Shown in pieces: positions 41 to 25,703 of a stretch of DNA of 36,046 nt. The stretch's first letter is position 1. Each line of letters starts with the position of its first letter. The translations under genes were made by a program, and so were the position numbers. The notes under the pieces are model-generated. The model was not told where the DNA came from, did not search any database, and saw nothing but the letters and a program-made list of their open reading frames with translations. The stretch spans positions 1-36,046 of the forward strand of contig JAFTBM010000005.1 of assembly GCA_017455205.1 (NCBI GenBank), in the 5' to 3' direction. This stretch comes from Bacteroidales bacterium. Lineage in GTDB: Bacteria > Bacteroidota > Bacteroidia > Bacteroidales > P3.

Positions 41-99
41 CACCCTCCAGCCACCCTCCCGCCATCCGCCCCGTTTTCTCCCCGTAACTCCTCCGCCCG

Positions 100-152
100 G
101 ATACGGACTTGATACGGAGCGGATACGGAGCGGATACGGAGCGGATACGGAG
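100..152 (+). repeat. 11-bp tandem array A (GATACGGAGCG, about five units)
   Basis: Five consecutive units with an exact 11-bp period: one divergent unit GATACGGACTT (100-110), three units GATACGGAGCG, and a partial unit ending at 152. The reverse complement of the same array, with the divergent unit in the matching place, lies at 23145-23198. The period is close to one helical turn. The units abut without spacers, so this is not a CRISPR array. Confidence 0.9.
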
Positions 153-699: not shown

Positions 700-978
700 G
701 TGGTTGAAAACGACATAAAGCGGGTCAAAAAGCGGGAATATGAGCCACCGCACTTGACGGTAGTCAGTTTTCAAGCAGAGCGTGGCTACGCGGCATCGCT
801 GTCGGAGGTGGCCGACGAGTTGGATCGTTGGGCACAGGGCGAGCTCCAGATTATAGGGTCGCTATCGGACAATGAGCTTTGGCAGGCTTCACAAGACGTT
901 TCGGGTGTGGGTACAGCCAGCGATGGCTTGCAGGCAGGCTATTTCTACCAGGAACAGACCGACGGTTGGTTCCAGTAG
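700..978 (+). CDS. Small hypothetical protein (92 aa), first gene of the giant-protein operon
   Basis: The 92-residue product begins with a charged stretch and YEPPHLTVVSF, resembling short Bacteroidales proteins with a tyrosine-proline motif and a glycine-containing middle (here ERGYAAS) that often precede surface-protein genes. No signal peptide, membrane segment or known domain is visible. The start is GTG at 700, the only plausible start before the YEPP motif, with AGAGG about 11 nt upstream. An in-frame stop lies at 673-675. The next gene begins 38 nt downstream, and the promoter-like TAACTTTG is 93 nt upstream, so it is probably co-transcribed with the lipoprotein and the giant secreted protein. 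I cannot assign a function; a role with the surface proteins is inference from position only. Confidence 0.6.
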   Translation: MVENDIKRVKKREYEPPHLTVVSFQAERGYAASLSEVADELDRWAQGELQIIGSLSDNELWQASQDVSGVGTASDGLQAGYFYQEQTDGWFQ

Positions 979-1016: not shown

Positions 1017-1745
1017 ATGGAAACGAAAAGATTGAGAATCACGATAGGGATAGTGCTCTCGGTGGTGGGTGCGATGGCTGCGTCGGGCTGTGGCAAGGAT
1101 GAAGGCTACAGCAGCTTCGAGCTGACGCCATCGGTAAATTCCACCGACGGGCGCAAAGCTGATTGGAGCGGCAACGGACTGTTTTGGCACACTGGCGACC
1201 AAGTGAGCATCAACGGCTATACCCACACGGTGAATATCAGTGGGAGCTTGTGGATCACCACAGGAGTGCACGTCAATGCCGAGGATGACGGCAACTTCTA
1301 TATAGCCTTCCCCTCAGGTTCGGGCTACAGCAGCAGCAGCCACACGGTGGGAGGCATAAGCATCACAGGCAACGTGGTGCCGCTATCCTGCGTGGGTAGC
1401 ACTAACAAGCTGACGCTCTACCCCTGCTGCGCAGTGCTGAAACTGGAGGGGATGGGTGGCGATGCGACGGTGGAGCTGACAGATGAGCCGTATGGTTCGC
1501 CGGTGATGGTTCCCACGAGTGGGAGCATCGACATCGCGGGCAATTGCATCACTGGCGGGAGCGACTACGAAAATGTGCTTTCGGGCGTAGAGGTGGGCGG
1601 AAGCACCTACGTGGTGGTGCCGATGACGGGCAACAGCCTGAGAGCCGCACTGACCATATTTGATGAAAACTACTACGGGGAGACCACCGAGGCGGTTACG
1701 CTGCGGAAAGGGTACCTTTACATCATAGACCCCGCTAACTTTTAG
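1017..1745 (+). CDS. Fimbrillin-like surface lipoprotein (242 aa)
   Basis: The start chosen is the ATG at 1017; an open frame extends further upstream but would bury the signal peptide. Residues 1-24 form a lipoprotein signal with a hydrophobic core and lipobox ending ASGC, so Cys25 would be acylated. Cys25 is followed by GKDE, which resembles the K-(D/E)2 lipoprotein export signal described in Capnocytophaga and suggests display outside the cell. The mature part is rich in Gly, Ser and Thr. It contains LFWHTGDQVSING, similar to the WxxGDxIxV motif of Mfa-like/fimbrillin proteins, and ends in a beta-strand-rich GYLYIIDPANF. Length fits small members of that group. It lies 29 nt upstream of the giant secreted protein. 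It might anchor or assemble with that protein, but this is inferred only from adjacency. Family assignment is moderate. Confidence 0.65.
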   Translation: METKRLRITIGIVLSVVGAMAASGCGKDEGYSSFELTPSVNSTDGRKADWSGNGLFWHTGDQVSINGYTHTVNISGSLWITTGVHVNAEDDGNFYIAFPSGSGYSSSSHTVGGISITGNVVPLSCVGSTNKLTLYPCCAVLKLEGMGGDATVELTDEPYGSPVMVPTSGSIDIAGNCITGGSDYENVLSGVEVGGSTYVVVPMTGNSLRAALTIFDENYYGETTEAVTLRKGYLYIIDPANF

Positions 1746-1774: not shown

Positions 1775-4700
1775 ATGAGCAAGCGTCTGCTTTTTGCATT
1801 GGGATTGGGAATAGCTTTGACGGGATTTGCGCCAGCGGCAAGTGCACAGCTGGTGTGGCAGCGTGTGGAATGGGCACGAGGATTGGCGGCAGGGACGTCG
1901 TCGACAATGGTGCCGTTCAACCATTCGGGCAGTTTTGCCTACACGTATGTGGAGACCATCTACGACAACGACTCGCTGGTGTTGGCCTCGGGCACGTATA
2001 TCGACACCGTGTGGTTCTACTGCACGGCGGTGGGCGACCCTGTGCCCAACGATGCATCGGTGGAGATTCGGATAAGCACCACTCCACTCAGTGCCCACAG
2101 CACAGTTAAAGGATGGCTCACAGGGTCGACAGCGGCCTCGGCCACATTTGCCACCACCCTGCAGCCCACCACCACGGGGTGGTTTCCCATCAAGCTGGAC
2201 ACCCCGTTTGAGTATACGGGCGAGGACAACCTGGTGATAACCGTCTATCGCAACGGGTCGGACGGCACGGGGCAGACCTACGCAGGCATCACCACGGCTG
2301 CCACCCGCACGACGCTGGGATATGGTGGTGCCTCCGCGTGGTCGGCTACCCAACCTGGCAATAGGGGACATGCTCACCGCCCCGACCTGCGGCTCTCGGT
2401 GCGTGCACCGCGCGTCAATAAGCCAGTGGAAAACCTTGCTGCAGCGGGAAGCACACAGACTACGGCCACTGTGGATTGGTCGGTGAATGCTATGGCTCTT
2501 GAACCTGTGGGATACAAGATTGAGTATGGCCCGCGCGGATTCACCGAAGGCACAGGCACAAAGATAATCACCACCGATGGCACAGCCACAAGCCACACCG
2601 TGGAGGAACTCGCGGCGGCCACGTGGTACGATGTTTATGTCAGTGCCATTGCTGGCCCTGCTGACACCTCGGCCAGCCGCAAAGTGAGCCTCGCCACTGG
2701 GTGCGACAAGAAAAGCATTCCTTGGGCGTGGACGTATACCGAGGGGCAGCTCTCGGACATCATCGTATGGTCAGCCAGCCAGTGGACTGGGAGCAATGAG
2801 CTTCCGCTCTGCTGGGACTTCCCCAACAAAGGAGCCAACAGCACCAGTTACCCGCAGTTTGGCATCTCGACATCAGGCTCTACGCCCACCCTCACACTGG
2901 TAACCGACAACGAAGTGCAGGCAGTGGCTGTGCTTCCCGAGATGGCTTTGCCCATCAATCAGCTCCTGTTGAGCTTCCACGTCAGTCTGGATGGTTTGGA
3001 ATATGGCTACATCACCGATGCTGCCGATGCCTCCACATTCCGCCTGCTGGGCACAGCATATTTGGGTGACAACTACGTCGACTACGAAGAGTTTGGGATG
3101 GAAGTGCCTGGTGGGGCTCGCATAGCATTTCGCTACACCAGTGCGGAAAGCTACGTTATGCCCATCTACGTTTCGGCAATCAGCGTGGAGGAAGCCCCCG
3201 CCTGCAAGCGGCCTGGAGCCATCACTATCGACGAGTCGGCGCTAACCTCTACCAGTGCCACTTTCAGCTGGAGCGGACGACTGGGGGCGGGAAACAGCTA
3301 CAGGCTGAAAGTGGTCAAAGCCAATCAGACGGATACCGTTACCCTGACAGGGCTTACCACCCAAAGCTACACCCTCTCCACCTACAACGATGCACCGCTG
3401 GAAGTTGGTACGGCCTACTTGGTGTATGTGGACAAACTCTGCGGCGGGTCGTACACTCCCCGCATGGAGAAGCGAGTAACCACACTGGGGGTTATCTACG
3501 CCAGTGTGGAGAGTGCCTGCACGGGGATGGGGACAGTGTATGGCAATGCGACGGGTCCGCTTGGCCGCACTTCTACATTCAGGGCTGTGCCCAACAACCA
3601 CTACCACTTTGTGGAGTGGAACGATGGCAACACCAGCAACCCGCGCAACATCTTCTACCAGTCGGTAGCCTCGCTCTCGCCCTACACGGCCACCTTTGCC
3701 ATCAACACCCACACCATCAACTTTGCTTCCAACAACGAGAGCTATGGCACGGTGAGCAACGCCACGGGCGAATATGCCTACGGCAGCATCGTCTCGAGCA
3801 CAGCCACCCCCAACGCTGGCTACTACTTCGCGGGGTGGAGCGATGGGACGACAAGCAGCACGATTAACCACACCGTCCGTGCCGACAACACACTGACGGC
3901 CTATTTTGTGCCCGACGGCTCGGTGCTTTGCATGGGTACGCTCCGCAACAGCGTGGCGGGCTACAGCATCACGCAGACACCTGCCGACGGCATCGTCAGC
4001 GAAGGGCAGACGGTGAGCATCGAAGTAACCGCGCCCCATGAGACTGGCTACCGCAACAATTGGGTGACCACACCGACAACGGAGAGCCACACCACAGGAA
4101 CGCTCGTCTACCAGGCCACCTACACCGCAGGCAGCACAAGTCAGATACTGGTGTTCAACAACGACCTTAAGTCCTTCGTGCTTGGGGTAACGGTCAACAA
4201 TCCGCTTTTCGGCGAGGTAGTAGGCTCGTCGAATGGCTCTATCATGTATTTCAACGAGGCAGTGTCGGCACAGGCTGCGCCACTTGCTGGATACAAGTTT
4301 GCCCGCTGGACGGGTTATGCACCAGGGACAGACAACCCGCTGACCTTTAACATGCCGGCAGCCAATGCCTCGGTCAACGCTGTCTTCCGTCGCGACAGCA
4401 TCACAGTGCACTTGATAGGCGAAGAGGGTGGTACGGTTGCACTCACCTACCAAGGGACGACCACGACGGGGAGTGAAGTGATCCGAAATGTGGCCACAGG
4501 CGACTCGTACACTATTACAGCCGCTGCTTCGAACAGCCACTACACCTTCTTCCAGTGGAGCGATGCCGTCGGCACCGCCGAGCGTTCCCTCACCGCCACA
4601 GGCAACGATGGCACTACTAAAACGCTGACGGCCATGTTCTCGCCTGAGATATTGAACATCACCGCCACATCGAACATCGGTGTGTGCACAGCCAGCGGTA

Positions 4701-7700
4701 GCAACACCTACGCCTACAACAGGAAAGCCACGCTCACGGCCACCCCCGAAACCCACTACGACTTCACCCGCTGGACACTCAGCGGCAGCGAGGTGAGCAC
4801 CAGTGCCACCTACGCCTTCACCGTGCTGGCCTCGGGCAACTATACTGCCGAGTTCACACCCAAGAGCTACACCATCACTGCAGCCAGCGAGAGTGCATCG
4901 CGCGGCAGCGTCAGTGGCGGTGGCAGCTATGTCTACAACACCACCGTTACCCTTACCGCCACACCTGAACCAGGCTGGGCATTCACCCAGTGGAGCGATG
5001 GCAACACCAGCAATCCGCGCATCTTCGCTGCGGAGGCTGACCTCGACGTAACGGCACAATTTGAGCAAGAGGTATACCATCTGACACTCAACGTAGTCAA
5101 TGGCATCATCACCGATGAGGCCACCCTTGAGGCCGCCGACTACCACTACGGCGACGTGGTAACACTGACGGCTGTCAATGCCGACCCTGTTACCTACCGC
5201 TGGGCAGGCTGGAGCGATGGTGGTGCACAGTCGCACACTTACACCGTTACGGCCAGTGCCACCCTGACGGCTACCTTCACGGCCATGGATCGTTATGTGG
5301 TCAATGCCAGTCCGAACAACGACCTCTACGGCAGTTGTGCCACCGATGCTGCCGACTACACCTCGGTGCAGACCGCCGAAGTGAGGGCTACGGCCAACAC
5401 AGGTTACCTCTTCGACCACTGGACCAACATACCCGCAGCCTACATGTACGACAACCCGCTGCGCATAGACATGGATGAGCACGACACCCTCATCCAAGCC
5501 ATCTTCGTTGCTATTCCCTACACAGTCAGCACCTCGGTAAACAATGCTGCTTGGGGGACACTGACTGGCGGTGGGGCATATACCTACAACAGCACCGCCC
5601 TACTGACGGCCATTCCTATGCCTGGCTATCGCGTGGATAGTTGGAGCACTGGCACCAGCCGCAACCTCACGCAGAGCAGTCTGACGGTAACTGGCAACAC
5701 TACGGTCAGCGTGAACTTCTGCCCCGACACCTTCAACATCAGCGCCATGGCCACTCACGCCACAATAACTATGACCCATGAGGGCGATGTGGTGCCTGGT
5801 GCGTCAGGTGCATTCGCCTACGGCAGCGTACTCACTCTTACGGCTGTGCCCGATGCCAACTACTCGGGCAACGCATGGAGCGATGGCAACACCAACGCCA
5901 CCCGCACCATCACCGTTGGCAATGAGGACAAAATTTACGTCTACTACACCAATGCTGACACCTATACCATCACGGGCATCAGTGCCGACCCAGTCATGGG
6001 ATACGTAACTGGTAGCGACACGCGTGCCTATGGGCAGCAGACCACGCTCGTGGCACATGCCAATCCGCACTACACCTTCCTGCAATGGAACGATGGCAAT
6101 ACCAATGCCAGCCGCATTGAGACCTTCACCTCCGACCGCATAGATACAGCCTACTTCGCCATTGGGCAGCACACCATCACCCTTGCAGGAGATGACGCAA
6201 GCCTCGGAGCAGTGAGCATCAACGGTGGTGCGTCCACAGGAGCATTCAACTACGGCTCGAGCATCACACTCCTTGCCCGTCCCAATGCAGGCGTAAAGTT
6301 CTTGCAATGGGTTGAAGATGGCATCACCGACACCCTGCGGAGCTACACCGTGGCCGACGATGCCACACTCACGGCCACGTGGGACAGCATAGCCTACACC
6401 CTCGACACCTTCAGTAACAGCCTCGTCATGGGGCATATCAACGCTTCGCCCTCAAAAGCCTACTATCGTTATGGCGAGAGTGTAAGCCTTGCCGCCGAAA
6501 TCAACAACAGCAGCCTTTACCGCTTTGTGGGCTGGAGCGATGGTGAGACCTCTACCACACACTCTACCATCACTTTCACTGACGAAGAGGTGGTCAGAAT
6601 AAGTGCCATCTTCGAAGAGAAGAGTCGCCATGCCATCAGTGTGGTTCCCAACAACGCCAGTTGGGGCAGTACCACTGGCTGTGCAACCAACTTGACCAAC
6701 GGCACATATCCCATTACGGCCACACCGCTTCACGACTACACCGAGTTCCTCGGCTGGAGCGACAATGGCAGCACCGACAGCCCACGCACCATCGTAATCA
6801 ACGACAACGACTTTATAGCCACCGCCAACTTCGGTCTCAAGAGTTATACAGCCACCTCGGCAGACCTTGCTGGCAACGGTACAGTGAGCGGTACTGGTAC
6901 ATTCCCCTACGGCACCAGCCTTACCCTCTTTGCCACAGCCAACCCTAACTACCTTTTCCGCGGATGGAGCAACGGTGAGACGCAGAATCCCTACACCTTC
7001 ACCATTGTTTCCGACACAGCAATCAACCCCATCTTCACGCTCGACAGTGTGGACATCGCCGTAGTTGCTCCCCACACCGATGCCATCATCGGGGCAGGAC
7101 GCTACGCCATCGGTGAAGCGGTAACACTGCGGGTGACACCATCGGCTCACTACCACGTCAGCTCATGGTCGCTGAACGGGAGCATTGTGGCTACCACCAC
7201 TGACACCCTTCCCACTTTCTACGCTACCAGCAGCATCACCCTCGTAGTAGATATCGAAAGCGACCAGTACAGCCTCTGGATCGGCAACGCACAGCCCACC
7301 ATGGGACAGGTAGATGGTGCACAGCTCAACACCCTCCTCAAGCTTGACTATGGCACTAACCTAACGCTCTCCGCGACTCCCAATGCCCACTACGACTTCG
7401 TGGGATGGATAACCCCCAGCGGCGACACCGTGAGCCACACCGCCACATTTGCATTCAACCTGACAGCCGACACCAACCTAACAGCCCACTTCCGTCCAAC
7501 CACCTTTGCCGTCAGCACCGTTTCCGCAGACCTCACTCAAGGCACCACTACGGGTAGCGATGCCGATAGCAACTACACCTACGGAAGCCTCTTCACTGCC
7601 GTGGCTACCCCCGCAACAGGCTACACCTTCAAGCAATGGACACCTGGCAATATCACCACCAACCCCTACACCTTCCAAGTGCAGACAGCCACTACGCTGA

Positions 7701-10681
7701 CGGCAGAGTTTGAGGCCGCAGCCTACACCCTTACTGCCACACCCAACGACCCTGCCATGGGTAGCATTACCCTCACCCCGAGCCGTGCTACTTACAGCCA
7801 CGGCGATACCGTCCGCATAGCTGTCAGCTACGACCCCACACGCTACCGCTTCATCAGCTGGAGCAATGGCGACACCCGCGAGGCATTCGACACCATCGTC
7901 ACCAGCCACATCGCCCTCATAGCCATCTTCAACGATGCATTCCAGAAAAATGTAACCCTCTTCGCCAACGGCAACGGAACAGCCACTGCCTCGGCCAACA
8001 GCGTCTATGAAGGCACTACCGTTACCATCACCGCCACACCTGCCGACACCAATACCTACTTTGCAGGTTGGAGCAATGGCATCACCACTGCCGTGACCAA
8101 CATCACCGTTACCACCGACACCCTCCTCACTGCCACCTTCCTGCCCAAGCAGCGCGCGCTCGATGTGCTTATCGCTGGGCGCGGAAGCGTGAGCCACGAC
8201 CTCTCCTACGCACATGGCACTTCCCTCACCCTTATCGCCACTCCCGATGCCCACGCCCACTTCCTCCGCTGGGACAACGGAAGCACCGCCCTGCACCGCA
8301 CCATCACAATGGACAGCAGCATTACTTTGAGCGCCCTCTTTGCCAACGACTCGGTGCGCATTCAAGCCTCGGCCATCAACGGTCAAGTCTCGGTGAGCGA
8401 CACCCTTGTCAGCTACGACAGCACCTTCTACCTGACCGCTACAGCAGCCGACCACTACAGCCACTTCCTCGGCTGGACGCGCAACGGAATAGCCATCTCG
8501 GGCAGCGAGACCATACTCATTGATGCCCAAAATAGCGCTTCCTATCAAGCCACCTTTGCCATCGACACCGTCAGCCTTACCCTCGCGGTCAGCGATCCCT
8601 CACAGGGAGCAATAGTGGGAGCCTCATCGGGCAACTACCCCTACGGCGCTCGCATCCAAATGGCCGCTACACCTGCCCGCAATCACCACTTCATCGGCTG
8701 GGCATCCAATCCTGCACTGACCTCTGCCAACCTCGATACCACCCTCACCACCAACACCACCCTCACCGCACTCTTCTGCCTCGACAGCTTCAACCTCGTC
8801 GCCAGTACGGATGCCACACTCCACTTCGGCACAGCCACCATTGACGGCAACCGCACACGTTTCGGCTATGGCGAAGTGGCCACCCTGCGTGCACGTCCCT
8901 CGGGCGAGATGTATCGCTTCGTCAAATGGGACGATGGCAATATAGACTCCGTACGAGCATTGATCATAACCTCCGACCTCACCCTCACTGCCCAGTTCGA
9001 CACCATCTGGTACACAGCCACCGCCACTGCCAACAACATCACCATGGGCCATGTTGAGGCTCGCAGCGGGCGCTACTACCACGGCGAAAACTTCCACGCT
9101 GTCGCCATCACCGACGACAGCACCCTCTACCGATTCCTCGGCTGGAGTCATGGCTCAACCCAATCTGCAATTGACACCATCGTCAAGAGCGACATCGCTC
9201 TGACCGCCCAGTTTGGCATCACAGGCTTCTCCCTAACCCTCCACTCTGCCGACACCGCAATGGGCACCGTCAGTGGTTCGGGAGCCTATATCCCCCACCA
9301 GCTCGTCACCATCACCGCCACCCCCGCCCGCGGCCACTCCTTCCTCATGTGGAGCGATGGCAACACCTCGGCTACACGCCAAATCTACATTACCTCCGAT
9401 AGCACGCTGACGGCCTACTTCAGCATCAATCGCTACACCGTCAGCGTCAGCATCAACGACTCCTCCCTCGGCTTCGTCAGCGGAGCTGGCGTCTACCTCT
9501 ACGGCGAGACTGTAACCCTCACCGCGCATCCTGCTCCCCACTACCGCATAGCCAACTTCAACGGCACACCCGCTGCGAGCAATACCTTCACCTTCATCCT
9601 TCAATCCGACACCACCATCACTGCCGACTTCGCTCGCGACTTCATCAAAATCTACACCCGCTCCGACCATGGCACCCTCGCAATTACCGCTGGCAACACA
9701 CCCGCCAACACCAACTACCAACCTACACTCGTCTACTATAACGACAGCGTGGTAATCACCAACTCCCCCGACCACGGCTACCACTTCACCGACTACACCC
9801 GCTACTCCATCACCTACGACACCATCGTTGACACCGTCTACGTCATCGACAGCCTCGTGGTAGACTCCATCTACATCACCCCCGAAGGCGAAGTTATCAC
9901 CCTCTACGACACCATCGCCCACTACGAGCCTCGCACTACACTCAACGTCAACTACTCCGCACTCGACACCCTCACCACCGACACCCTCTCCTTCCGTTCC
10001 CTCACCGACCTCTACATCGAAACCCACTACGCCCGCAACAGCTACACCGTCAGTCTCTCTGGCCTCCACGCTACCCTCACTGGCGACAGCATCTACCTCT
10101 TCGGCGACCTCGTAACCCTCACCGCCCACTGCGACTCGCACTACCACTTCGTGGCCTGGCTCGATACCTTGGGCGACACCATTAGCACCCTCAACCCGTT
10201 CTCCTTCGCCATTGACAGCAACGTAAGCCTTATCGCCGCCACCGCCCTCGACCAACTGACGCTCACCCTCACCGCCACTACTGGCGGCACTGCCACAGGT
10301 GCTGGCCTCTTCGACTACGGCTCCACTGCCACCATCACCGCCACCGCCGACGATGGCTACTACTTCATCGCATGGAGCGATGGCGATACCCATGCTATAC
10401 GCCAGATCACCCTCACCACCGACACCTCCCTCACCGCCATCTTCTACCTACTCGGCATCAACCAAACCGACCGCGACGACCTCCGAATCCACGCCGAGGG
10501 GCTCACTATCCACATCGAAGGTGCCGAAGGGCAGCACGTAACCCTCTTCGACGCTGTAGGCCGACAAGTTGCCACCATAGCCGAAGCAAAACCCAGCCTC
10601 AAGCTGCAGGTAACAGCAGCTGGCATCTACCTCGTCAAGATAGGCAAGCATCCTGCGCAACGCATTATGGTAGTCAGATAG
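1775..10681 (+). CDS. Giant T9SS-secreted InlB-B-repeat protein (2968 aa)
   Basis: Residues 1-25 are a signal peptide ending ASAQ. Next come a beta-rich domain (about 26-212), a fibronectin type III domain (about 213-308), a domain resembling Bacteroidales cleaved-adhesin modules (about 309-475) and a second FN3-like domain (about 476-568). About 31 copies of a roughly 75-residue repeat follow (570-2890). Each has a GT/GS turn, a YxYG-type strand, LTATP, then a core such as HYTFLQWNDGNT, and ends in TAxF. These match the divergent InlB B-repeat (Listeria/Bacterioides repeat) family. The last 75 residues are a T9SS type A sorting domain: LFDAVGRQV, GIYLVKI and a basic end. The protein should therefore cross the outer membrane by T9SS and be attached or released. 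A long adhesin-like stalk is a reasonable inference. No catalytic domain is seen. A terminator hairpin follows 11 nt after the stop. Confidence 0.93.
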   Translation: MSKRLLFALGLGIALTGFAPAASAQLVWQRVEWARGLAAGTSSTMVPFNHSGSFAYTYVETIYDNDSLVLASGTYIDTVWFYCTAVGDPVPNDASVEIRISTTPLSAHSTVKGWLTGSTAASATFATTLQPTTTGWFPIKLDTPFEYTGEDNLVITVYRNGSDGTGQTYAGITTAATRTTLGYGGASAWSATQPGNRGHAHRPDLRLSVRAPRVNKPVENLAAAGSTQTTATVDWSVNAMALEPVGYKIEYGPRGFTEGTGTKIITTDGTATSHTVEELAAATWYDVYVSAIAGPADTSASRKVSLATGCDKKSIPWAWTYTEGQLSDIIVWSASQWTGSNELPLCWDFPNKGANSTSYPQFGISTSGSTPTLTLVTDNEVQAVAVLPEMALPINQLLLSFHVSLDGLEYGYITDAADASTFRLLGTAYLGDNYVDYEEFGMEVPGGARIAFRYTSAESYVMPIYVSAISVEEAPACKRPGAITIDESALTSTSATFSWSGRLGAGNSYRLKVVKANQTDTVTLTGLTTQSYTLSTYNDAPLEVGTAYLVYVDKLCGGSYTPRMEKRVTTLGVIYASVESACTGMGTVYGNATGPLGRTSTFRAVPNNHYHFVEWNDGNTSNPRNIFYQSVASLSPYTATFAINTHTINFASNNESYGTVSNATGEYAYGSIVSSTATPNAGYYFAGWSDGTTSSTINHTVRADNTLTAYFVPDGSVLCMGTLRNSVAGYSITQTPADGIVSEGQTVSIEVTAPHETGYRNNWVTTPTTESHTTGTLVYQATYTAGSTSQILVFNNDLKSFVLGVTVNNPLFGEVVGSSNGSIMYFNEAVSAQAAPLAGYKFARWTGYAPGTDNPLTFNMPAANASVNAVFRRDSITVHLIGEEGGTVALTYQGTTTTGSEVIRNVATGDSYTITAAASNSHYTFFQWSDAVGTAERSLTATGNDGTTKTLTAMFSPEILNITATSNIGVCTASGSNTYAYNRKATLTATPETHYDFTRWTLSGSEVSTSATYAFTVLASGNYTAEFTPKSYTITAASESASRGSVSGGGSYVYNTTVTLTATPEPGWAFTQWSDGNTSNPRIFAAEADLDVTAQFEQEVYHLTLNVVNGIITDEATLEAADYHYGDVVTLTAVNADPVTYRWAGWSDGGAQSHTYTVTASATLTATFTAMDRYVVNASPNNDLYGSCATDAADYTSVQTAEVRATANTGYLFDHWTNIPAAYMYDNPLRIDMDEHDTLIQAIFVAIPYTVSTSVNNAAWGTLTGGGAYTYNSTALLTAIPMPGYRVDSWSTGTSRNLTQSSLTVTGNTTVSVNFCPDTFNISAMATHATITMTHEGDVVPGASGAFAYGSVLTLTAVPDANYSGNAWSDGNTNATRTITVGNEDKIYVYYTNADTYTITGISADPVMGYVTGSDTRAYGQQTTLVAHANPHYTFLQWNDGNTNASRIETFTSDRIDTAYFAIGQHTITLAGDDASLGAVSINGGASTGAFNYGSSITLLARPNAGVKFLQWVEDGITDTLRSYTVADDATLTATWDSIAYTLDTFSNSLVMGHINASPSKAYYRYGESVSLAAEINNSSLYRFVGWSDGETSTTHSTITFTDEEVVRISAIFEEKSRHAISVVPNNASWGSTTGCATNLTNGTYPITATPLHDYTEFLGWSDNGSTDSPRTIVINDNDFIATANFGLKSYTATSADLAGNGTVSGTGTFPYGTSLTLFATANPNYLFRGWSNGETQNPYTFTIVSDTAINPIFTLDSVDIAVVAPHTDAIIGAGRYAIGEAVTLRVTPSAHYHVSSWSLNGSIVATTTDTLPTFYATSSITLVVDIESDQYSLWIGNAQPTMGQVDGAQLNTLLKLDYGTNLTLSATPNAHYDFVGWITPSGDTVSHTATFAFNLTADTNLTAHFRPTTFAVSTVSADLTQGTTTGSDADSNYTYGSLFTAVATPATGYTFKQWTPGNITTNPYTFQVQTATTLTAEFEAAAYTLTATPNDPAMGSITLTPSRATYSHGDTVRIAVSYDPTRYRFISWSNGDTREAFDTIVTSHIALIAIFNDAFQKNVTLFANGNGTATASANSVYEGTTVTITATPADTNTYFAGWSNGITTAVTNITVTTDTLLTATFLPKQRALDVLIAGRGSVSHDLSYAHGTSLTLIATPDAHAHFLRWDNGSTALHRTITMDSSITLSALFANDSVRIQASAINGQVSVSDTLVSYDSTFYLTATAADHYSHFLGWTRNGIAISGSETILIDAQNSASYQATFAIDTVSLTLAVSDPSQGAIVGASSGNYPYGARIQMAATPARNHHFIGWASNPALTSANLDTTLTTNTTLTALFCLDSFNLVASTDATLHFGTATIDGNRTRFGYGEVATLRARPSGEMYRFVKWDDGNIDSVRALIITSDLTLTAQFDTIWYTATATANNITMGHVEARSGRYYHGENFHAVAITDDSTLYRFLGWSHGSTQSAIDTIVKSDIALTAQFGITGFSLTLHSADTAMGTVSGSGAYIPHQLVTITATPARGHSFLMWSDGNTSATRQIYITSDSTLTAYFSINRYTVSVSINDSSLGFVSGAGVYLYGETVTLTAHPAPHYRIANFNGTPAASNTFTFILQSDTTITADFARDFIKIYTRSDHGTLAITAGNTPANTNYQPTLVYYNDSVVITNSPDHGYHFTDYTRYSITYDTIVDTVYVIDSLVVDSIYITPEGEVITLYDTIAHYEPRTTLNVNYSALDTLTTDTLSFRSLTDLYIETHYARNSYTVSLSGLHATLTGDSIYLFGDLVTLTAHCDSHYHFVAWLDTLGDTISTLNPFSFAIDSNVSLIAATALDQLTLTLTATTGGTATGAGLFDYGSTATITATADDGYYFIAWSDGDTHAIRQITLTTDTSLTAIFYLLGINQTDRDDLRIHAEGLTIHIEGAEGQHVTLFDAVGRQVATIAEAKPSLKLQVTAAGIYLVKIGKHPAQRIMVVR
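3484..10446 (+). repeat. About 31 tandem coding repeats (InlB-B type, roughly 75 codons each)
   Basis: The repeat core is a Trp followed by SDG or NDG in most units, spaced about 70-80 codons apart. Some units are near-identical at DNA level around this core, for example TGGAGCGATGGCAACACC at about 4993 and 9352. A few units are degenerate: the one near 4050 lacks the core order, one near 9560 has Phe-Asn-Gly in place of the Trp core, and one near 9790 carries a long Asp/Thr/Ile-rich insertion. The short DNA identities could allow unit gain or loss by recombination. Confidence 0.85.
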
Positions 10682-10691
10682 GAGTAAACCC

Positions 10692-10732
10692 ACCAGCGGA
10701 GGCCAAACCGCCAGCGTTTGGCCTCCGCTGGT
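10692..10732 (+). terminator. Strong hairpin after the giant gene
   Basis: A perfect 17-bp stem (10692-10708 with 10716-10732) and a 7-nt loop lie 11 nt after the stop of the giant gene. The left arm contains CCAGCGGAGGCCAAAC. Only a short T run follows, so termination may be partial. Confidence 0.8.
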
Positions 10733-10790
10733 TTAATGAAAAAACACCTGAATAGGGAGAATTAAAAAGTAACAACAACATCATACAGCC

Positions 10791-12575
10791 ATGCAAGAAC
10801 CGACCCGATTGTTTGACCTGCTCGACTGGCGCAAATCCCTTCATCCCGAGCGTCCCGTCTTCAAATACAAAGAAGACGGCCAATGGCAAAGCCACTACAT
10901 CGATGAATACATCGAAAAGGCCAACCTTATCAGCTATGCCTTGCTCCACCTCGGCGTGCAACGTGGCGAAAATATCGGCCTCATCTCCGCTGGCCGCCCT
11001 GAATGGAACTACATCGACTTCGGTGTGCAACAGACAGGTGCCGTACTCCTCCCCATCTACCCCACCATCAGCGAGGACGACTACCGCTTTATCCTCTCCG
11101 ATGCCAAAGTGCGCCTTCTTGTGGTGGAAACCCCTGCACTCTACAAAAAAATAACCTCCATCCGTGAGCAGTTGCCCACCCTCGAAAACCTCTGCACCAT
11201 CGTCCCCATGGAAGGAGTAAAATCCCTTGCCGACATCTACCAGCTCGGGCGCGACTACCTCGCCTCCCACCCCGATGCCCCTCAGCAGCTTCAGTCCATC
11301 AAGGACAGCCTCACCACCGACGATGTCTGCACCCTCATCTACACCTCTGGTACCACTGGCACCCCCAAAGGCGTTATGCTCGCCCATCGCGGCCTCATCA
11401 TGAACGTGCAGGAAATCAAAGAAAGCCCCAGCAAGACTTGGACTCGCGCCCTCAGTTGGCTCCCTATGTGCCACATCTACGAGCGCATGATGGGCTACCT
11501 CTACCAGTGGCTCTGCTTCGAGATAGCCTACGCCGAAAGCATTGCCAAAGTGGGCGACAACTGCAAGGAAATCCACCCCCACATGCTCGCCTGCGTCCCC
11601 CGATTCATCGAAAAAGTCTACGACAAAATCTACCGCAAAGGCGAGAAACTGACTGGCACACGCAAGAAAATCTTCGACTGGGCACTCAACCTCGCCTTCC
11701 GCTACGACCTCGATGAATCCCACCTCAGCCTCGGCTACAAACTCCAAAAACTCATAGCCGACAAGCTGGTCTACAAAGAAATCCGCGAAAGCATGGGCGG
11801 CTGCCTCGGCATGCTCGTCAGCGGCGGTGCCACCATCCAGCCACGCCTCACGCGCTTCTTCTCCTGCGTGGGTCTCGACCTCTACGAAGGCTACGGCATC
11901 ACCGAATGCTCACCACTGATAGCCGTCACCAACAGCAACAAGAAAGGGCGCAAAATAGGCTCTGTGGGATTTGCTATGCGCGAGATTGAAGTCCGCATCA
12001 ACCCCGACACCAACGAAATCCAGTGCCGCGGCGGCAACGTCATGAAAGGCTACTACAACCAGCCCGAACTCACCGCCCAAGCCATCGACCCCGACGGCTG
12101 GTTCCACACTGGCGACACTGGCTACTTCGACCCCGACGGCTACCTCTTCATCACTGGGCGCACCAAGAGCATGTTCAAAACCTCCATGGGCAAATTCATC
12201 AACCCCGAAGTCATCGAGGAAAAAATGAAGCAATCACCCTTCATCCTCGACATGATGGTGGTCGGCGCCGACCAAAAATACGCCGCCGCACTCATCGCCC
12301 CCGACTTCGACATGCTCCGCGACTGGTGCCGCCGACACGGCGTCAGTGCCGAAAGCCACGAGCAAATGATAGCCGACCGTGCCGTCGTGGCACGCTTCCA
12401 AAAGGTGGTGGACAAGTACAACACCGAACTGGGCGTAACCGAGCAAATCAAGCGCTTCACCCTCGTTCCCGATGCCTGGAACGAAAACAACCGTATGCTC
12501 ACCCCCACCCAGAAGCTCATCCGCCGCAACGTGGAAGCCGCCTACAAGGAGCAAATCAACGACCTCTTTAAGTAA
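10791..12575 (+). CDS. Long-chain fatty acid--CoA ligase (AMP-forming), 594 aa
   Basis: A member of the adenylate-forming superfamily that activates a fatty acid with ATP and transfers it to CoA. Visible motifs are the phosphate loop YTSGTTGTPKGVML (about residues 183-196), the YGITECS adenine-site motif (about 368-374), TGDTGYFDPDGYLFITGR (about 440-457) and a C-terminal Lys region TPTQKLIRR. Length and the N-terminal start (RLFDLLDWR) match Bacteroidota FAA1/FadD-type ligases of about 600 residues. Related ligases act on other acids, so the substrate is inferred. The threonine aldolase gene starts 4 nt after the stop, so the two are probably co-transcribed. No TAnnTTTG promoter was found in the 109-nt gap upstream. 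Confidence 0.88.
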   Translation: MQEPTRLFDLLDWRKSLHPERPVFKYKEDGQWQSHYIDEYIEKANLISYALLHLGVQRGENIGLISAGRPEWNYIDFGVQQTGAVLLPIYPTISEDDYRFILSDAKVRLLVVETPALYKKITSIREQLPTLENLCTIVPMEGVKSLADIYQLGRDYLASHPDAPQQLQSIKDSLTTDDVCTLIYTSGTTGTPKGVMLAHRGLIMNVQEIKESPSKTWTRALSWLPMCHIYERMMGYLYQWLCFEIAYAESIAKVGDNCKEIHPHMLACVPRFIEKVYDKIYRKGEKLTGTRKKIFDWALNLAFRYDLDESHLSLGYKLQKLIADKLVYKEIRESMGGCLGMLVSGGATIQPRLTRFFSCVGLDLYEGYGITECSPLIAVTNSNKKGRKIGSVGFAMREIEVRINPDTNEIQCRGGNVMKGYYNQPELTAQAIDPDGWFHTGDTGYFDPDGYLFITGRTKSMFKTSMGKFINPEVIEEKMKQSPFILDMMVVGADQKYAAALIAPDFDMLRDWCRRHGVSAESHEQMIADRAVVARFQKVVDKYNTELGVTEQIKRFTLVPDAWNENNRMLTPTQKLIRRNVEAAYKEQINDLFK

Positions 12576-12579
12576 ACCT

Positions 12580-13641
12580 ATGCAACGAGGATTTGGCAGC
12601 GACAATCACTCGGGCATCAGCCCCGAAGTCCTACAAGCCATCGCCCAAGCCAATAGTGGCCACGCCATCGCCTATGGCGACGACGAATGCACCCTCCGCC
12701 TCCGCACGCTCTTCAAGGAAGTCTTCGGCTCGGCAGCAGAAGTCTACCCCGTCTTCAACGGCACAGGAGCCAACATCCTCTGCCTCGACACCCTCTGCCG
12801 CTCCCACGAAGCCGTAGTCTGCGCGGAGACAGCCCACATCAACGTCGACGAATGCGGTGCCCCGCAACGCATCATTGGCTGCCGCCTACTCCCCATCCCC
12901 ACCCCCGACGGTAAACTCACTCCCGACCTCGTCCTCCCCCACCTCCACGGCATCGGCTTCGAGCACCACTCCCAACCCCGTGCCATCAGCATCACACAGC
13001 CCACCGAACTCGGCACCATCTACACCCCCAGCGAAATCCGCACCCTCGCTGACCTCGCCCACAGCCGCGATATGTACCTCCACCTCGACGGTGCCCGACT
13101 GGCCAACGCCGCCGCAGCCCTCTGTCTTTCATTCCGTGAACTCACCACCGACCTCGGAGTAGACATCCTCAGCTTCGGAGGCACCAAAAACGGCCTCCTC
13201 ATGGGCGAAGCCTGCGTCGTTCTCAACCCCACCCTCGCATCCCCCACCCCCTCCCCGTCCGACACCACCCCGCTGCTCCGCTACCGACGCAAGCAGATGT
13301 CTCAACTCTGCAGCAAAATGCGCTTCCTCTCCGCACAACTCGAAGTCTACCTCACCACCAACCTTTGGCAGCGCAACGCATCCCACAGCAACCACATGGC
13401 TCAACTGCTCAAAACATCCATCGAGCAACTACCTGGGGCAGAAATTGCCTACCCAGTCCAAGCCAACAGCGTCTTCGTCAAGCTCCCCACTGCCGTCTGG
13501 AAACGACTGCAGCAGCGCTACTTCTTCTACGCTTGGGACGAAGCCGCCGACATCGTCCGCTTCATGTGCTCATTCGACACCACCGAATCCGACATCCTCT
13601 CATTCACCCAAGCCCTCAACGAAGAACTATGCAAAAAATAA
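12580..13641 (+). CDS. Low-specificity L-threonine aldolase-like PLP enzyme (353 aa)
   Basis: A fold-type I PLP enzyme of the beta-eliminating lyase/threonine aldolase family, which cleaves threonine or allo-threonine to glycine and acetaldehyde. Diagnostic features: FGSDNHSGISPEVL at the N-terminus, the YGDDECT motif, HLDGARLANAA (cofactor-binding Asp and Arg), and SFGGTKNG, where Lys203 should form the Schiff base with PLP. Length fits the family (about 340-350). The ATG at 12580 lies 4 nt after the preceding ligase; the frame is open further upstream, inside the ligase gene, but that part looks non-coding. The 3' end overlaps the next gene by 13 nt. Likely a cytosolic enzyme in a three-gene operon. 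The metabolic link between these genes is not obvious. Confidence 0.88.
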   Translation: MQRGFGSDNHSGISPEVLQAIAQANSGHAIAYGDDECTLRLRTLFKEVFGSAAEVYPVFNGTGANILCLDTLCRSHEAVVCAETAHINVDECGAPQRIIGCRLLPIPTPDGKLTPDLVLPHLHGIGFEHHSQPRAISITQPTELGTIYTPSEIRTLADLAHSRDMYLHLDGARLANAAAALCLSFRELTTDLGVDILSFGGTKNGLLMGEACVVLNPTLASPTPSPSDTTPLLRYRRKQMSQLCSKMRFLSAQLEVYLTTNLWQRNASHSNHMAQLLKTSIEQLPGAEIAYPVQANSVFVKLPTAVWKRLQQRYFFYAWDEAADIVRFMCSFDTTESDILSFTQALNEELCKK

Positions 13642-16205: not shown

Positions 16206-17027
16206 ATGAAAACTGACAACAAATGGGAACAATTTGAAGTGCAGCCCGACAGCGACCTCTACGCTGGGGTGCAGCATCGGCTGCGTATTCGCAGGGCATG
16301 GCGAAGGGGTGCTGTAGCAACGGTCATAGCAGCTGCAGCCGCCGCCGCTTGGATGCTCATTCCATCTAATGACAAGGAGGTTACGCAGCCGATGCCTGTG
16401 GCTTCGGCGGTAGAAGTCCAGCCAGCAGCGACCGCCCCCGATCCAGTGGCAGAAAGCAGCGAGCTGGCTCCCCTCAGCAGCTCAACAACACGGCAATCGA
16501 CCGAGAATCATCCCACCACCACCGCCACCGTGGCCACTGCCCAGCCTCCTCTTGCCTCCACCACCAGCCAAGATGGCGTCCTTGACCCCAACCCATTGAG
16601 TCTCCCCTCGCAGCCCACTCCGCTCCCCCTCAAAGACCTGCCAATGGGCGAGATGGTAGCCACCTCCGAAGCCGACACAACCAGCGAACTCCCCGTCGCT
16701 GCTAATCCGCCCTCCTCCCCCACACAGACCTCCACCGACACCATCCCCAACCAAATTTGGGCACCCAACATCATCGTCCCCAACGGCGAAGTGGATGCCA
16801 ACCGCTACTTCAGCTTGAAATTCAGCACCTCGGTCAGCGAATTTAAGCTCTACCTCTACAATCGCGGCGGACGCCTTATCTACAAGACCGAAGACCCCGA
16901 CTTCCGCTGGGATGCACGGCGCGATGGCGACCTGGTGCCACAAGGCACCTACGTCTGGATAGCCACCTTCCGCGACAGCAGTGGCGAAGCCCGACGCGAA
17001 AAAGGCACCCTGACGGTGATTCGATAG
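16206..17027 (+). CDS. Putative anti-sigma-like membrane protein with CHU_C (T9SS type B-like) domain
   Basis: The 273-residue protein has a short charged N-terminal part (about 1-35), one Ala-rich transmembrane segment (about 36-55, TVIAAAAAAAWMLI), a long Pro/Ser/Thr-rich linker (about 60-180) and a C-terminal beta domain (about 185-273). The last part carries the signature of gliding-motility-associated C-terminal domains: PNGEVDANRYF, LYLYNRGGRLIYKTED, FRWDAR, VPQGTYVWIA and GTLTVIR. Anti-sigma factors in this phylum usually sit next to their ECF gene and span the inner membrane. The order, the 4-nt spacing and the topology suggest this is the partner of the sigma factor. No zinc-type anti-sigma motif is visible in the short cytoplasmic part, so the role is inference. 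A terminator closes the operon. Confidence 0.75.
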   Translation: MKTDNKWEQFEVQPDSDLYAGVQHRLRIRRAWRRGAVATVIAAAAAAAWMLIPSNDKEVTQPMPVASAVEVQPAATAPDPVAESSELAPLSSSTTRQSTENHPTTTATVATAQPPLASTTSQDGVLDPNPLSLPSQPTPLPLKDLPMGEMVATSEADTTSELPVAANPPSSPTQTSTDTIPNQIWAPNIIVPNGEVDANRYFSLKFSTSVSEFKLYLYNRGGRLIYKTEDPDFRWDARRDGDLVPQGTYVWIATFRDSSGEARREKGTLTVIR

Positions 17028-17115: not shown

Positions 17116-17147
17116 TTTCACCAATCCGAAAAAAAGTTGTACCTTTG
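17116..17147 (+). promoter_or_regulatory. rnpB promoter (TTTC -33, TACCTTTG -7)
   Basis: TACCTTTG at 17140-17147 matches the Bacteroidota -7 element, with TTTC at 17116-17119 in the -33 position (20-nt spacer). The mature RNase P RNA begins at about 17154, a fitting distance downstream. Confidence 0.8.
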
Positions 17148-17153
17148 CCGCGT

Positions 17154-17551
17154 GAAATAGCAGGGGCTGTTCTATCGCTGGGCAGAGATGCCGAGAGGAA
17201 AGTCCGGGCAGCGCAGGCCACCATGCTTCCTAACGGGAAGGCGTCGGGGCGGCAACCAACCGACGACAGCAAGCGCCACAGAAAACAAACCGCCCCGCAG
17301 CAAACCATCAACGGGCTGGTGCGGGGTAAGGGTGAAAACGCGGGGCAAGAGCCCACGACGCGCTCTGGCGACAGACGCGATGGCAAGCCTCATGGGCTGA
17401 AAGACCAAATACACCAGCAATCTCGGGTAGGCCTGCCCGAAGCCTGCAAAGGCCGTTGCTGGGGGGTAGGTTGATAGAGACTGCCGGCGACGGTAGCCGT
17501 AGATTGATGATAGAACACGACAGAACCCGGCTTATAGGCAACTGCTATTTC
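17154..17551 (+). ncRNA. rnpB: RNase P RNA (bacterial type A), catalytic RNA for tRNA 5' maturation
   Basis: The conserved core is easy to read: GAGGAAAGTCCGGGC near the 5' end (P4 5' strand), ACAGAAA in the middle, GGTGAAA and, at the 3' end, ACAGAACCCGGCTTATAG. The two ends pair perfectly as helix P1: GAAATAGCAG at 17154-17163 with CTGCTATTTC at 17542-17551. This gives a length of about 398 nt, typical for the phylum. A T-rich stretch (TTTATTTTG) after P1 probably ends transcription. It has its own promoter directly upstream. Confidence 0.96.
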
Positions 17552-23144: not shown

Positions 23145-23198
23145 CTCCGTATCCACTCCGTATCCACTCCGTATCCACTCCGTATCAAGTCCGTATTC
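23145..23198 (-). repeat. 11-bp tandem array B, inverted copy of array A
   Basis: Three exact units CTCCGTATCCA (23145-23177), a variant CTCCGTATCAA (23178-23188) and a divergent unit GTCCGTATTC. Read on the minus strand this is the same order as array A at 100-152: divergent unit first, then GATACGGAG-type units. The flank on the divergent side also matches in both copies (a CCG...TTTTCTCC segment), so the repeat unit is larger than the array itself. Confidence 0.9.
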
Positions 23199-23733: not shown

Positions 23734-24819
23734 ATGAGTGACAGTGAAATTATAGCAATCGTAAACAGTATCATCAACGGTGATCAACGTTTCGGTTTTC
23801 TCAATGGCAACTCTGCCGATGTTTTGAAACATCTACCAAACGAATCCGTTAATTGCATAATCACCTCACCCCCTTACTGGGCACAAAGGGAGTATGACAT
23901 TGAAGAGGAAGACAAAGAAATGGAGATTGGACGCGAGGAGGATTATGGGAAATATGTTCAGTCTCTGCGTGATGTATTTTGTGAAGCCAAGAGAGTTCTC
24001 AAAAAGGATGGTTCTCTGTGGTTAAACATCGGGGATAAGTATCATAATAAAGCATTGATGGGTATGCCATGGAGGGTTGCCCTGTCATTGATGGATGACG
24101 GTTGGATTCTCCGCAATGATATTATTTGGGATAAGATGAAAGGAACACAGAGTTGTCGTGATAGATTCCGTGATGTATATGAACATTTCTTTCATTTTGT
24201 CAAAAGCCCCAAATACTATTATGATGCAGATAGCATAAGGGTCATTTCTCCAAGAAAACCCAAAAAAGTCAATGGAGAAATGGTATCAGCGACTGGTGTG
24301 AGCGGAAAACGGTATAAACGGTTAATAGAAGAAAGCACAGAACTTACAGAAATGGAAAAAGCCGCTGCAACAAGAGCCCTCGAGGATACGCTAACTCAAC
24401 TAATGAATGGAGAAATCGTTGACTTCAGAATGACATTGAGAGGAACACAACGCACATATCATAGCGACAACTCCAATGTTAGCGGACGGGCAAAAGAATT
24501 AGAGAACAAGGGGTTCTTCATTATGAAAATGAGTAGTAAGGGATTCCTACCATCTGACATTTGGAGAATAACCCCGGAAGACACGTGGCGTAAAGATGAG
24601 CATTATGCAGTATTCCCTGAAGAATTGTTGCAAAATCCGATATTAGCGACATGCCCTCATGATGGAATTGTATTGGACACCTTTTCTGGCACAGGAAGTA
24701 CTATCGCCGCCGCACTTAAACTTGGCCGCAAAGGTATCGGTATCGATTTAAGCAACAAATACATTGAAATTGCCAAACGAAGAGTATCTAACACATCATA
24801 TACATTACCGTTGTTATGA
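23734..24819 (+). CDS. Type II DNA methyltransferase, probable N4-cytosine (361 aa)
   Basis: Motif IV is TSPPYW (Thr44-Trp49), a form common in N4-cytosine methyltransferases. The SAM-binding motif comes late, DTFSGTGSTIAAALKLGRKGIGID starting at Asp315, giving the order of class beta enzymes. Between them, RVLKKDGSLWLNIGD and GWILRNDIIWDK are typical of the N4/N6 methylase family. A variable region (about 185-290) should read the target sequence. The gene overlaps the nuclease gene by 4 nt, so the two form a restriction-modification pair in which this enzyme protects host DNA. N6-adenine modification is not excluded. Low GC and different codon use suggest recent transfer. Confidence 0.9.
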   Translation: MSDSEIIAIVNSIINGDQRFGFLNGNSADVLKHLPNESVNCIITSPPYWAQREYDIEEEDKEMEIGREEDYGKYVQSLRDVFCEAKRVLKKDGSLWLNIGDKYHNKALMGMPWRVALSLMDDGWILRNDIIWDKMKGTQSCRDRFRDVYEHFFHFVKSPKYYYDADSIRVISPRKPKKVNGEMVSATGVSGKRYKRLIEESTELTEMEKAAATRALEDTLTQLMNGEIVDFRMTLRGTQRTYHSDNSNVSGRAKELENKGFFIMKMSSKGFLPSDIWRITPEDTWRKDEHYAVFPEELLQNPILATCPHDGIVLDTFSGTGSTIAAALKLGRKGIGIDLSNKYIEIAKRRVSNTSYTLPLL

Positions 24820-25703
24820 AAAAGCCTGATATCAAAAAGTTCCCAACAGAAATGTTCGGATGTCCTTATATCGGACAAGAAAAAGCACTTAAACTTGCAT
24901 TACGACAGCAATACTGCAAGTATATTCATGGAACTTGCGTAAAACCGCGTAAAAGCGAGCCCGATGTGAAAGTCGGAATATGTAGTGTTGGATATAAAGG
25001 TGAGTTCTTAAAGGAATATACCCCCGTCATTTTATGCCCTCAACGACTAAAAGAAGACACGCTTTTCGAAACCATTCGCGAGAAATATTTGGGTTCATGG
25101 AAAAACGTAGAATGGATTCCGGAAGTGAATATTGGAGCCGGTGGGAGTGTCGATTATGTGGCAGTAACAAGAGATGATAAAGGGCGAATACTGGATTTCC
25201 TGTGTGTAGAGTTACAAGCTGCTGGCACTACCGGGTCACCATACCAGGCAATTCTGGACTACAAAAAGAATGGAAAGTTCTTGCAAAACAGTTACCGTTT
25301 TGGAATCAACTGGGCAAACGAGTTTTCAAAAACCATGATGCAACAGGCGTACAAGAAAGGTAAAATTGTAGAACATTGGCATCGTAAAATCGTCTTTGCT
25401 GTACAGGATGTTGCAATGGATTTTATTCGCAGTTCGTCTAACACAAGCCGACTAACGAAATGCAACCCTTCTTTACCTGTTGATTTCTGCACCTTCAAGT
25501 TGGTATGGAGCGATACCCACAGTGCTTGGCTAATGCATTTCGACAACATTGTGAGTACTGATATTGAAGGGATAAATCTTATTCTCGGTGGAGCTGATGT
25601 TGACCTTTACCCGACAGAAGAAGAGTTTATCTTGAACATTGTCAAGAAAGGTATTTCAGATGGTATCTTTGATAGTGAAACATATAGAAAACTGTATTTT
25701 TAA
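24816..25703 (+). CDS. NotI-like type II restriction endonuclease (295 aa)
   Basis: The N-terminal part follows the NotI-family pattern: EMFGCPY, then four cysteines at 34, 41, 56 (GICSV) and 74 (LCPQR), which could bind iron as in NotI. The nuclease core is read as a PD-(D/E)XK variant: Asp113 in GGSVDYVAV and Glu132-x-Gln134 in FLCVELQAAGTTG, with Gln in the place of the usual Lys. Cleavage of unmethylated DNA at a specific site is expected. Whether the site is that of NotI is unknown. It overlaps the methyltransferase by 4 nt and shares its low GC. Assignment rests on motif reading, and a more remote restriction family is possible. Confidence 0.75.
   Translation: MKKPDIKKFPTEMFGCPYIGQEKALKLALRQQYCKYIHGTCVKPRKSEPDVKVGICSVGYKGEFLKEYTPVILCPQRLKEDTLFETIREKYLGSWKNVEWIPEVNIGAGGSVDYVAVTRDDKGRILDFLCVELQAAGTTGSPYQAILDYKKNGKFLQNSYRFGINWANEFSKTMMQQAYKKGKIVEHWHRKIVFAVQDVAMDFIRSSSNTSRLTKCNPSLPVDFCTFKLVWSDTHSAWLMHFDNIVSTDIEGINLILGGADVDLYPTEEEFILNIVKKGISDGIFDSETYRKLYF

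Follow-up and report, generated by a model that had tools for sequence, protein, structure and literature searches.

Conserved repeat order in a giant InlB B-repeat protein of an uncultured gut Bacteroidales lineage

The InlB B repeat, familiar from Listeria InlB and represented by the families PF18998 and PF09479, is described as a beta-grasp-like, flexibly linked domain, with at most four copies reported for internalins (PMC8900821). Tails of type IX secretion system (T9SS) cargo form a second point of reference. For one type A tail, the last 22 residues (motifs D and E) are reported to be all that secretion needs (PMC10202324), and the P. gingivalis T9SS cargo PG2216 is listed with DUF6383 and described with a pectin-lyase-like domain (PMC9722745). 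Our searches found no literature joining the InlB B repeat with type IX secretion in Bacteroid-named taxa, and repeat order was not the topic of any title or abstract opening in the InlB-B, divergent InlB and DUF6383 literature.

We analysed a stretch of 36,046 nucleotides (the window) from a Bacteroidales genome (contig JAFTBM010000005.1), which encodes a protein of great length, probably exposed on the surface of an uncultured gut bacterium and here called the giant. It resembles the InlB B-repeat proteins in its PF18998 repeats but differs from the internalins in having about 31 of them, with FN3 stretches and a T9SS-type tail in place of the internalin domain. The tail profile matches that of the type A cargo protein RgpB and, weakly, RemA, and SprA and PorU are present in the genome; unlike type A tails, however, it falls below the PF18962 cut-off and is without the PNP motif. 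The tail is of the DUF6383 kind, as in PG2216, whereas the body of the giant consists of InlB-B repeats instead of a pectin-lyase-like domain.

The giant gene and its repeat array

The giant is a single open frame with 0 internal stops and is the third gene of a recurring unit made up of a small GWF-ended protein, a lipoprotein and an InlB-B protein. The features of the unit are listed here by window coordinates and strand; G and L numbers denote related genomes and loci.

700..978, plus strand: first gene of the unit, a small protein with a GWF(Q) end (GTG start picked by eye)
1017..1745, plus strand: lipoprotein, second gene of the unit (lipobox by eye; homologues upstream of the giant in relatives)
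1775..10681, plus strand: giant InlB-B repeat protein, 2968 aa (open reading frame and Pfam)
1775..1846, plus strand: signal peptide, residues 1-24 (read by eye)
1847..2413, plus strand: N-terminal region, residues 25-213 (without Pfam family)
2423..2683, plus strand: FN3 domain 1, residues 217-303 (Pfam)
2690..3199, plus strand: inter-FN3 region (without Pfam family)
3236..3460, plus strand: FN3-like domain 2 (22.7 bits alone, cut-off 25)
3509..10447, plus strand: InlB-B repeat array, 31 repeats, or 30 by a second model (Pfam and own-repeat models)
3947..4192, plus strand: irregular repeat segment, residues 725-806 (by eye in slices of G024, G025, G015 and G019)
9212..9247, plus strand: repeat 25/26 junction (site of extra repeats in L101, L104, L106 and L107)
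9863..10045, plus strand: insertion of about 60 residues after repeat 28 (repeat comparison)
10448..10678, plus strand: T9SS-type C-terminal domain, DUF6383-like (profile comparisons)

A sequence-only reading of the window had described one open frame with a signal peptide, two FN3 stretches and about 31 InlB-B repeats. The open reading frame and Pfam bear this out, and the start of the protein is signal-peptide-like by eye. PF18998 matches the giant at 620.9 bits (E 1.9e-191; curated cut-off 23.6 bits) in 29 stretches, PF09479 at 65.6 bits, and fn3 at 33.6 bits in two stretches of the whole protein; the E-values of the Pfam matches exclude chance. An own-repeat model places 31 repeats at residues 579-2891, a spurious match at residues 91-135 having been dropped from this count. 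A second repeat model finds 30, and its numbering is used for the repeat tree, the order tests and all comparisons with relatives. The median repeat period is 73 residues. The Pfam scan gave no family and no recognised ligand-binding domain for residues 25-213 and 306-475. When compared with the PDB, the N-terminal profile had 245 matches, the best 60 of which all peak in the first FN3 region, and a tri-repeat profile had 0 matches at E<=0.1.

Pairwise identity between repeats of the giant averages 32% and reaches 56% at most, and exact DNA repeats within the gene are no longer than 19 bp. This divergence makes collapse or expansion of the array during short-read assembly unlikely. The gene begins 1.8 kb from a contig start in an assembly of 69 contigs, which would suit a repeat number that is an artefact of assembly; given the short exact repeats and the collinear arrays found in seven other assemblies, we regard that explanation as extremely improbable. 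In the suggestion that several repeats had lost the Trp core or gained insertions, "several" is a strong word: the core slice is without Trp in two of the 30 repeats (27 and 28), and one repeat bears the insertion of about 60 residues.

Recent tandem expansion was considered for the window gene and ruled out. Adjacent repeats are 0.32 identical, as are all pairs (0.32), and tree cherries within one protein number 11 of 86, against 12.7% expected for random pairs. In the same repeat tree, a few within-protein repeat pairs in the relatives are nevertheless well supported (repeats 21 and 23 of L103, for example), and the closest match of every window repeat (30/30) is a repeat of another species.

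Repeat order across species

Over 99 species of the window's genus are represented in the collection that we used. The window N-terminus alone, as the query of a named-genome scan, returned no relative, and the same scan with an N-terminal alignment returned eight loci (L101-L108), all titled Bacteroidales or Bacteroidetes. In four of the titles a gut organ of sheep, water deer or goat is named, and the other four carry RUG isolate names. Seven of these loci, L101-L107, have both the N-terminus and the tail in common with the giant; L101, L102, L104, L105, L106 and L107 are the genomes G116, G024, G015, G004, G025 and G019, respectively. The model that counts 30 repeats in the window counts 37, 19, 30, 33, 30, 43 and 29 in L101 to L107, in that order. 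The eighth locus, L108, matches only part of the N-terminus and has 13 repeats. PF18998 is present in 60/60 congeners examined, with 4 to 79 matches each and 76 in the window's own genome, at most 79 candidates being scored per genome. The sequence-only reading had taken the repeat number to be large for the family, and that view finds no support here: the range of 19-43 in the seven relatives rules out 31 as a large number for the locus and makes it ordinary for the lineage.

We compared the order of the repeats by scoring each repeat against each repeat of a relative, removing row and column means, finding the best ordered chain and repeating this over 300 shuffles. The chain between the window and its relatives exceeds all shuffles in 7/7 comparisons (0/300 reach the score; z 5.4-10.6), and true-order scores of 25.7-49.8 compare with 11.9-17.0 when the order is reversed. 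Seven non-orthologous arrays served as controls (L108, five own-genome paralogues and the 1612-aa protein of G009). Six of the seven gave z -1.3 to 0.3, and C49, which has seven repeats, gave z 2.1 with 2/300 shuffles reaching the score. Some rotation of the array reaches the score in 3/7 comparisons; because rotation by one leaves nearly the whole chain in place, this control says nothing on order. Of the 28 possible pairings within this set of eight arrays (window and L101-L107), 25 have 0/60 shuffles reaching the score, the remaining pairs being L102-L101 (10 of 60), L105-L101 (3) and L103-L102 (2). Only one of the eight pairs with L108, that with L104, stands out at all (z 2.1, 2/60 shuffles).

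Most of window repeats 1-25 pair with repeats of equal or nearly equal number in L101, L104 and L106. Small register offsets occur near repeats 3-6. The last block is also retained, since repeats 26-30 map in L101 and L103, and repeats 26-29 in L104 and L106. Between repeats 25 and 26 lie extra repeats in L101 (7), L104 (4), L106 (12) and L107 (7), and no extras occur at this junction in L102, L103 and L105. Length also changes beyond the junction: L102 is without counterparts of many of repeats 16-25, and L105 and L107 are without counterparts of several. The extra repeats of L101 have mapped counterparts among those of L106 and L107, and in the N-terminal tree the window pairs with L101 (support 1.000). 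The simpler reading of these two observations is that repeats were probably lost in the window's lineage.

Irregular parts of the array recur as well. The irregular segment at residues 725-806 is found by eye at the same place in four relatives (G024, G025, G015 and G019), the insertion of about 60 residues is also seen by eye in G025 and G015, and for repeat 28 there are mapped counterparts in L101 and L103 as well. Mapped repeat pairs have a mean identity of 0.40 against 0.31 for unmapped pairs, a mapped value that is inflated because the alignment chose the pairs. Judged by these comparisons, the repeats are positional orthologues whose collinear order is kept between the window and all seven relatives. 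Conservation of repeat order in related species suggests that the array is more than padding made of interchangeable domains. The hint of specialisation inside the array that had been drawn from the window gains support from the positional orthology of single repeats and from the recurrence of irregular repeats at the same places.

The three-gene unit, its locus and the surrounding DNA

The three genes of the unit lie close together, with 38 bases between the small protein and the lipoprotein and 29 bases between the lipoprotein and the giant. Pfam and NCBIfam give no family for either of the two upstream proteins. Calling the lipoprotein a fimbrillin was rejected, the likeness being by eye only. 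The counts that follow for the unit families come from loci retrieved on account of the giant or of TrmO. The small-protein family comprises 14 genes at E<=0.05 in 64 sequences (1.02 Mb); five of the 14 are seeds of the model, and the genes occupy 15 rows because that of L105 is interrupted. In 13/14 cases a gene of the lipoprotein family lies within the next 2.5 kb. The InlB-B gene comes directly next in eight units and lies further downstream in L102, L104 and L105. The lipoprotein model has matches in 20/41 genomes at E<=1e-6. Matches below 1e-70 number five among the 25 genus genomes searched, all of them in giant-bearing genomes (own, G004, G015, G019 and G024). G002, G007, G008, G009 and G023 have longer lipoprotein relatives, of 563-594 aa. 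In the three of these genomes that were inspected, G008, G009 and G023, they sit just upstream of a 1612-1671-aa InlB-B protein.

The giant gene lies upstream of AKR and/or TrmO in G116, G024, G015, G004, G025 and G019. We viewed 46 genomes around TrmO (40 drawn, five known and the window's own) and found the giant in seven, five of which had been picked for holding it; one of the 40 drawn by TrmO has the giant. Those 40 loci were chosen by contig room from 89 genomes with a match, and at seven of them the contig ends before 12 kb, so that absence of the giant there means nothing. Five other TrmO-locus genomes (G009, G008, G023, G110 and G117) hold an InlB-B protein of 1604-1701 aa instead. 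These BspA-LRR/InlB-B proteins share with the giant its locus, both upstream families, a related tail and the InlB-B repeat, of which they have 10-12. L098, the one locus counterpart scanned with Pfam, differs from the giant in an LRR_5 region with BspA-type LRRs, and the repeats of L098 are not collinear with those of the window (z -1.3). G008 and G023 also hold a 484-490-aa, four-repeat protein with the giant's kind of tail.

Several further features were observed in the window and its genome. Along the giant gene, G/C skew at fourfold-degenerate sites declines from +0.08 to -0.85 (Spearman -0.345, n 1175, p 3e-34), a trend also present in Thr, Ala, Ser, Val and Gly codons taken separately. 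Among the orthologues the gradient is present in G004 (+0.38 to -0.75), weak in G024 and G025, and absent in G015 and G019. At L012 (own genome, C59), positions 9207-12818, two plus-strand genes have fourfold skews of -0.83 and -0.88, and the adjoining minus-strand gene has one of +0.86; because the sign flips with gene strand, the asymmetry there follows the DNA strand, and its strength changes within a few kb. A dispersed element of tandem 11-bp units (GGATACGGAG plus one base) lies at window positions 98-152 (plus strand) and 23145-23196 (minus strand). It has 124 pattern matches in the own genome, with at least 47 separate sites among the matches listed, against 0 for a reversed-pattern control, 0 in 58 congeners and 0 in viral contigs. 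Seven full copies have a longer conserved flank in common, and one lies about 300 bp upstream of SprA. A bacterial RNase P class A RNA (225.7 bits) occupies 17159-17550 and overlaps the listed open reading frame 17145-17474, whose apparent conservation is therefore that of the RNA and not of a protein. Adjoining genes for a DNA methylase (PF01555) and a NotI-like endonuclease (PF12183) at 23734-25703 lie in a 41% GC stretch and were probably acquired.

C-terminal tail, export and proposed function

The tail spans residues 2892-2968 and had been read as a type A sorting tail. Por_Secre_tail (PF18962) scores 20.3 bits on the tail alone and 14.4 bits in the whole protein, short of the cut-off of 27, and NCBIfam, including the TIGR04183 type A tail, has no match to the giant at E<=1. 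The PNP motif is N-terminal in 6/6 canonical tails of the own genome, a selection in which two fall below the PF18962 cut-off, and is missing from the window tail in the alignment. DUF6383 (PF19910) scores 22.9 bits and misses its cut-off of 23.7 marginally, by 0.8; it is matched in 12/12 related tails, a selection comprising the window tail and 11 others (seven from relatives and four from the own genome). The tail profile matches RgpB gingipain tails in the PDB, with 5hfs at E 1.5e-5 over positions 9-68 of 77, further matches to 7pq4, 5ag8 and 5ag9, and a weak match to RemA (8gl6, E 0.099), all within the best 60 of 94. Designed beta-propellers (Tako8 and Ika8) top this list with the lowest E-values and no single passing stretch, and the propeller 6d69 has one passing stretch (E 1e-4). 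This search thus carries composition noise and is weighed with care. Alignment of the related-tail profile with the six canonical own-genome tails by hhalign gave 96.7% over 44 columns.

From the 5hfs match and the hhalign result, we assign the tail to the T9SS-tail superfamily, broadly defined. Por_Secre_tail matches 28 times in the own genome at E<=0.01, with 22 of these above the cut-off, and SprA (2402 bits) and PorU (850 bits) are encoded there. T9SS export of the giant is likely on this evidence. The T9SS part of the earlier assignment thus stands, and the tail is better called DUF6383-like than type A. Elsewhere in the window, 16206-17027 encodes a 273-aa protein with a CHU_C domain (PF13585, 45.1 bits), a family described as a type B T9SS tail (PMC10202324).

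We consider it likely that the giant is a surface stalk or adhesin, exported by the T9SS and anchored by its C-terminus. What the analysis shows is the architecture, the SprA and PorU genes, the kinship of the tail with T9SS tails, the kept repeat order and the three-gene unit; export, cleavage and anchoring of the giant, its stalk shape, adhesion and ligand are inferred. The putative Sec signal peptide would take the protein to the periplasm, where the C-terminal domain would be recognised by the T9SS and the chain would leave through SprA. The sortase PorU would then probably remove the tail and join the new C-terminus to surface lipopolysaccharide. The roughly 31 beta-grasp-type repeats, seemingly old units that are each conserved individually and in fixed order, would form the stalk, with an FN3-containing N-terminal head at the far end. 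This head would most likely bind another cell, mucus or plant-fibre polysaccharide. A surface-binding role is favoured by the BspA-type LRR_5 region in the locus counterpart L098.

The T9SS is described as serving gliding adhesins and surface layers too (PMC10202324), and the giant could be a component of either kind instead of an adhesive stalk. The gliding adhesin SprB, however, has a type B tail according to the same source, whereas the window tail is DUF6383/type A-like, and we judge this reading very unlikely. Somewhat better placed, and still unlikely, is a released, non-anchored scaffold whose repeats themselves bind glycan or mucin and whose tail is removed without attachment. Conservation of single repeats by position would agree with such a scaffold, as would reports that RemA- and AmyB-type A tails allow release (PMC12618676) and that phage-displayed dextran and pectin binders resembled Prevotella proteins with InlB-B among other domains (PMC10076258). 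Those binders had no Pfam match, however, and so do not show binding by the repeats, and the genome encodes the anchoring sortase PorU.

An anchored stalk or adhesin may also be part of a larger arrangement, which we put forward as speculation with a rather low chance of being right as a whole. The small GWF-ended protein and the lipoprotein would assemble or anchor a T9SS-exported fibre of fixed-order, individually specialised repeats, whose length would change at a site beside the anchor-proximal block. The third gene would be exchangeable at the same chromosomal place, being either an FN3-headed giant or a protein of the BspA-LRR type.

InlB-B repeats occur in every one of the 60 congeners examined. 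The count of 31 is by itself ordinary for the lineage, and the positional orthology of the repeats is the new result. Because the order is kept, such an array can be studied as separate, testable domains, namely repeats 2, 22, 26 and 30, the insertion repeat and the 25/26 junction. The two partner proteins, which have no Pfam or NCBIfam family, offer a genetic way into the presentation of proteins of this kind.
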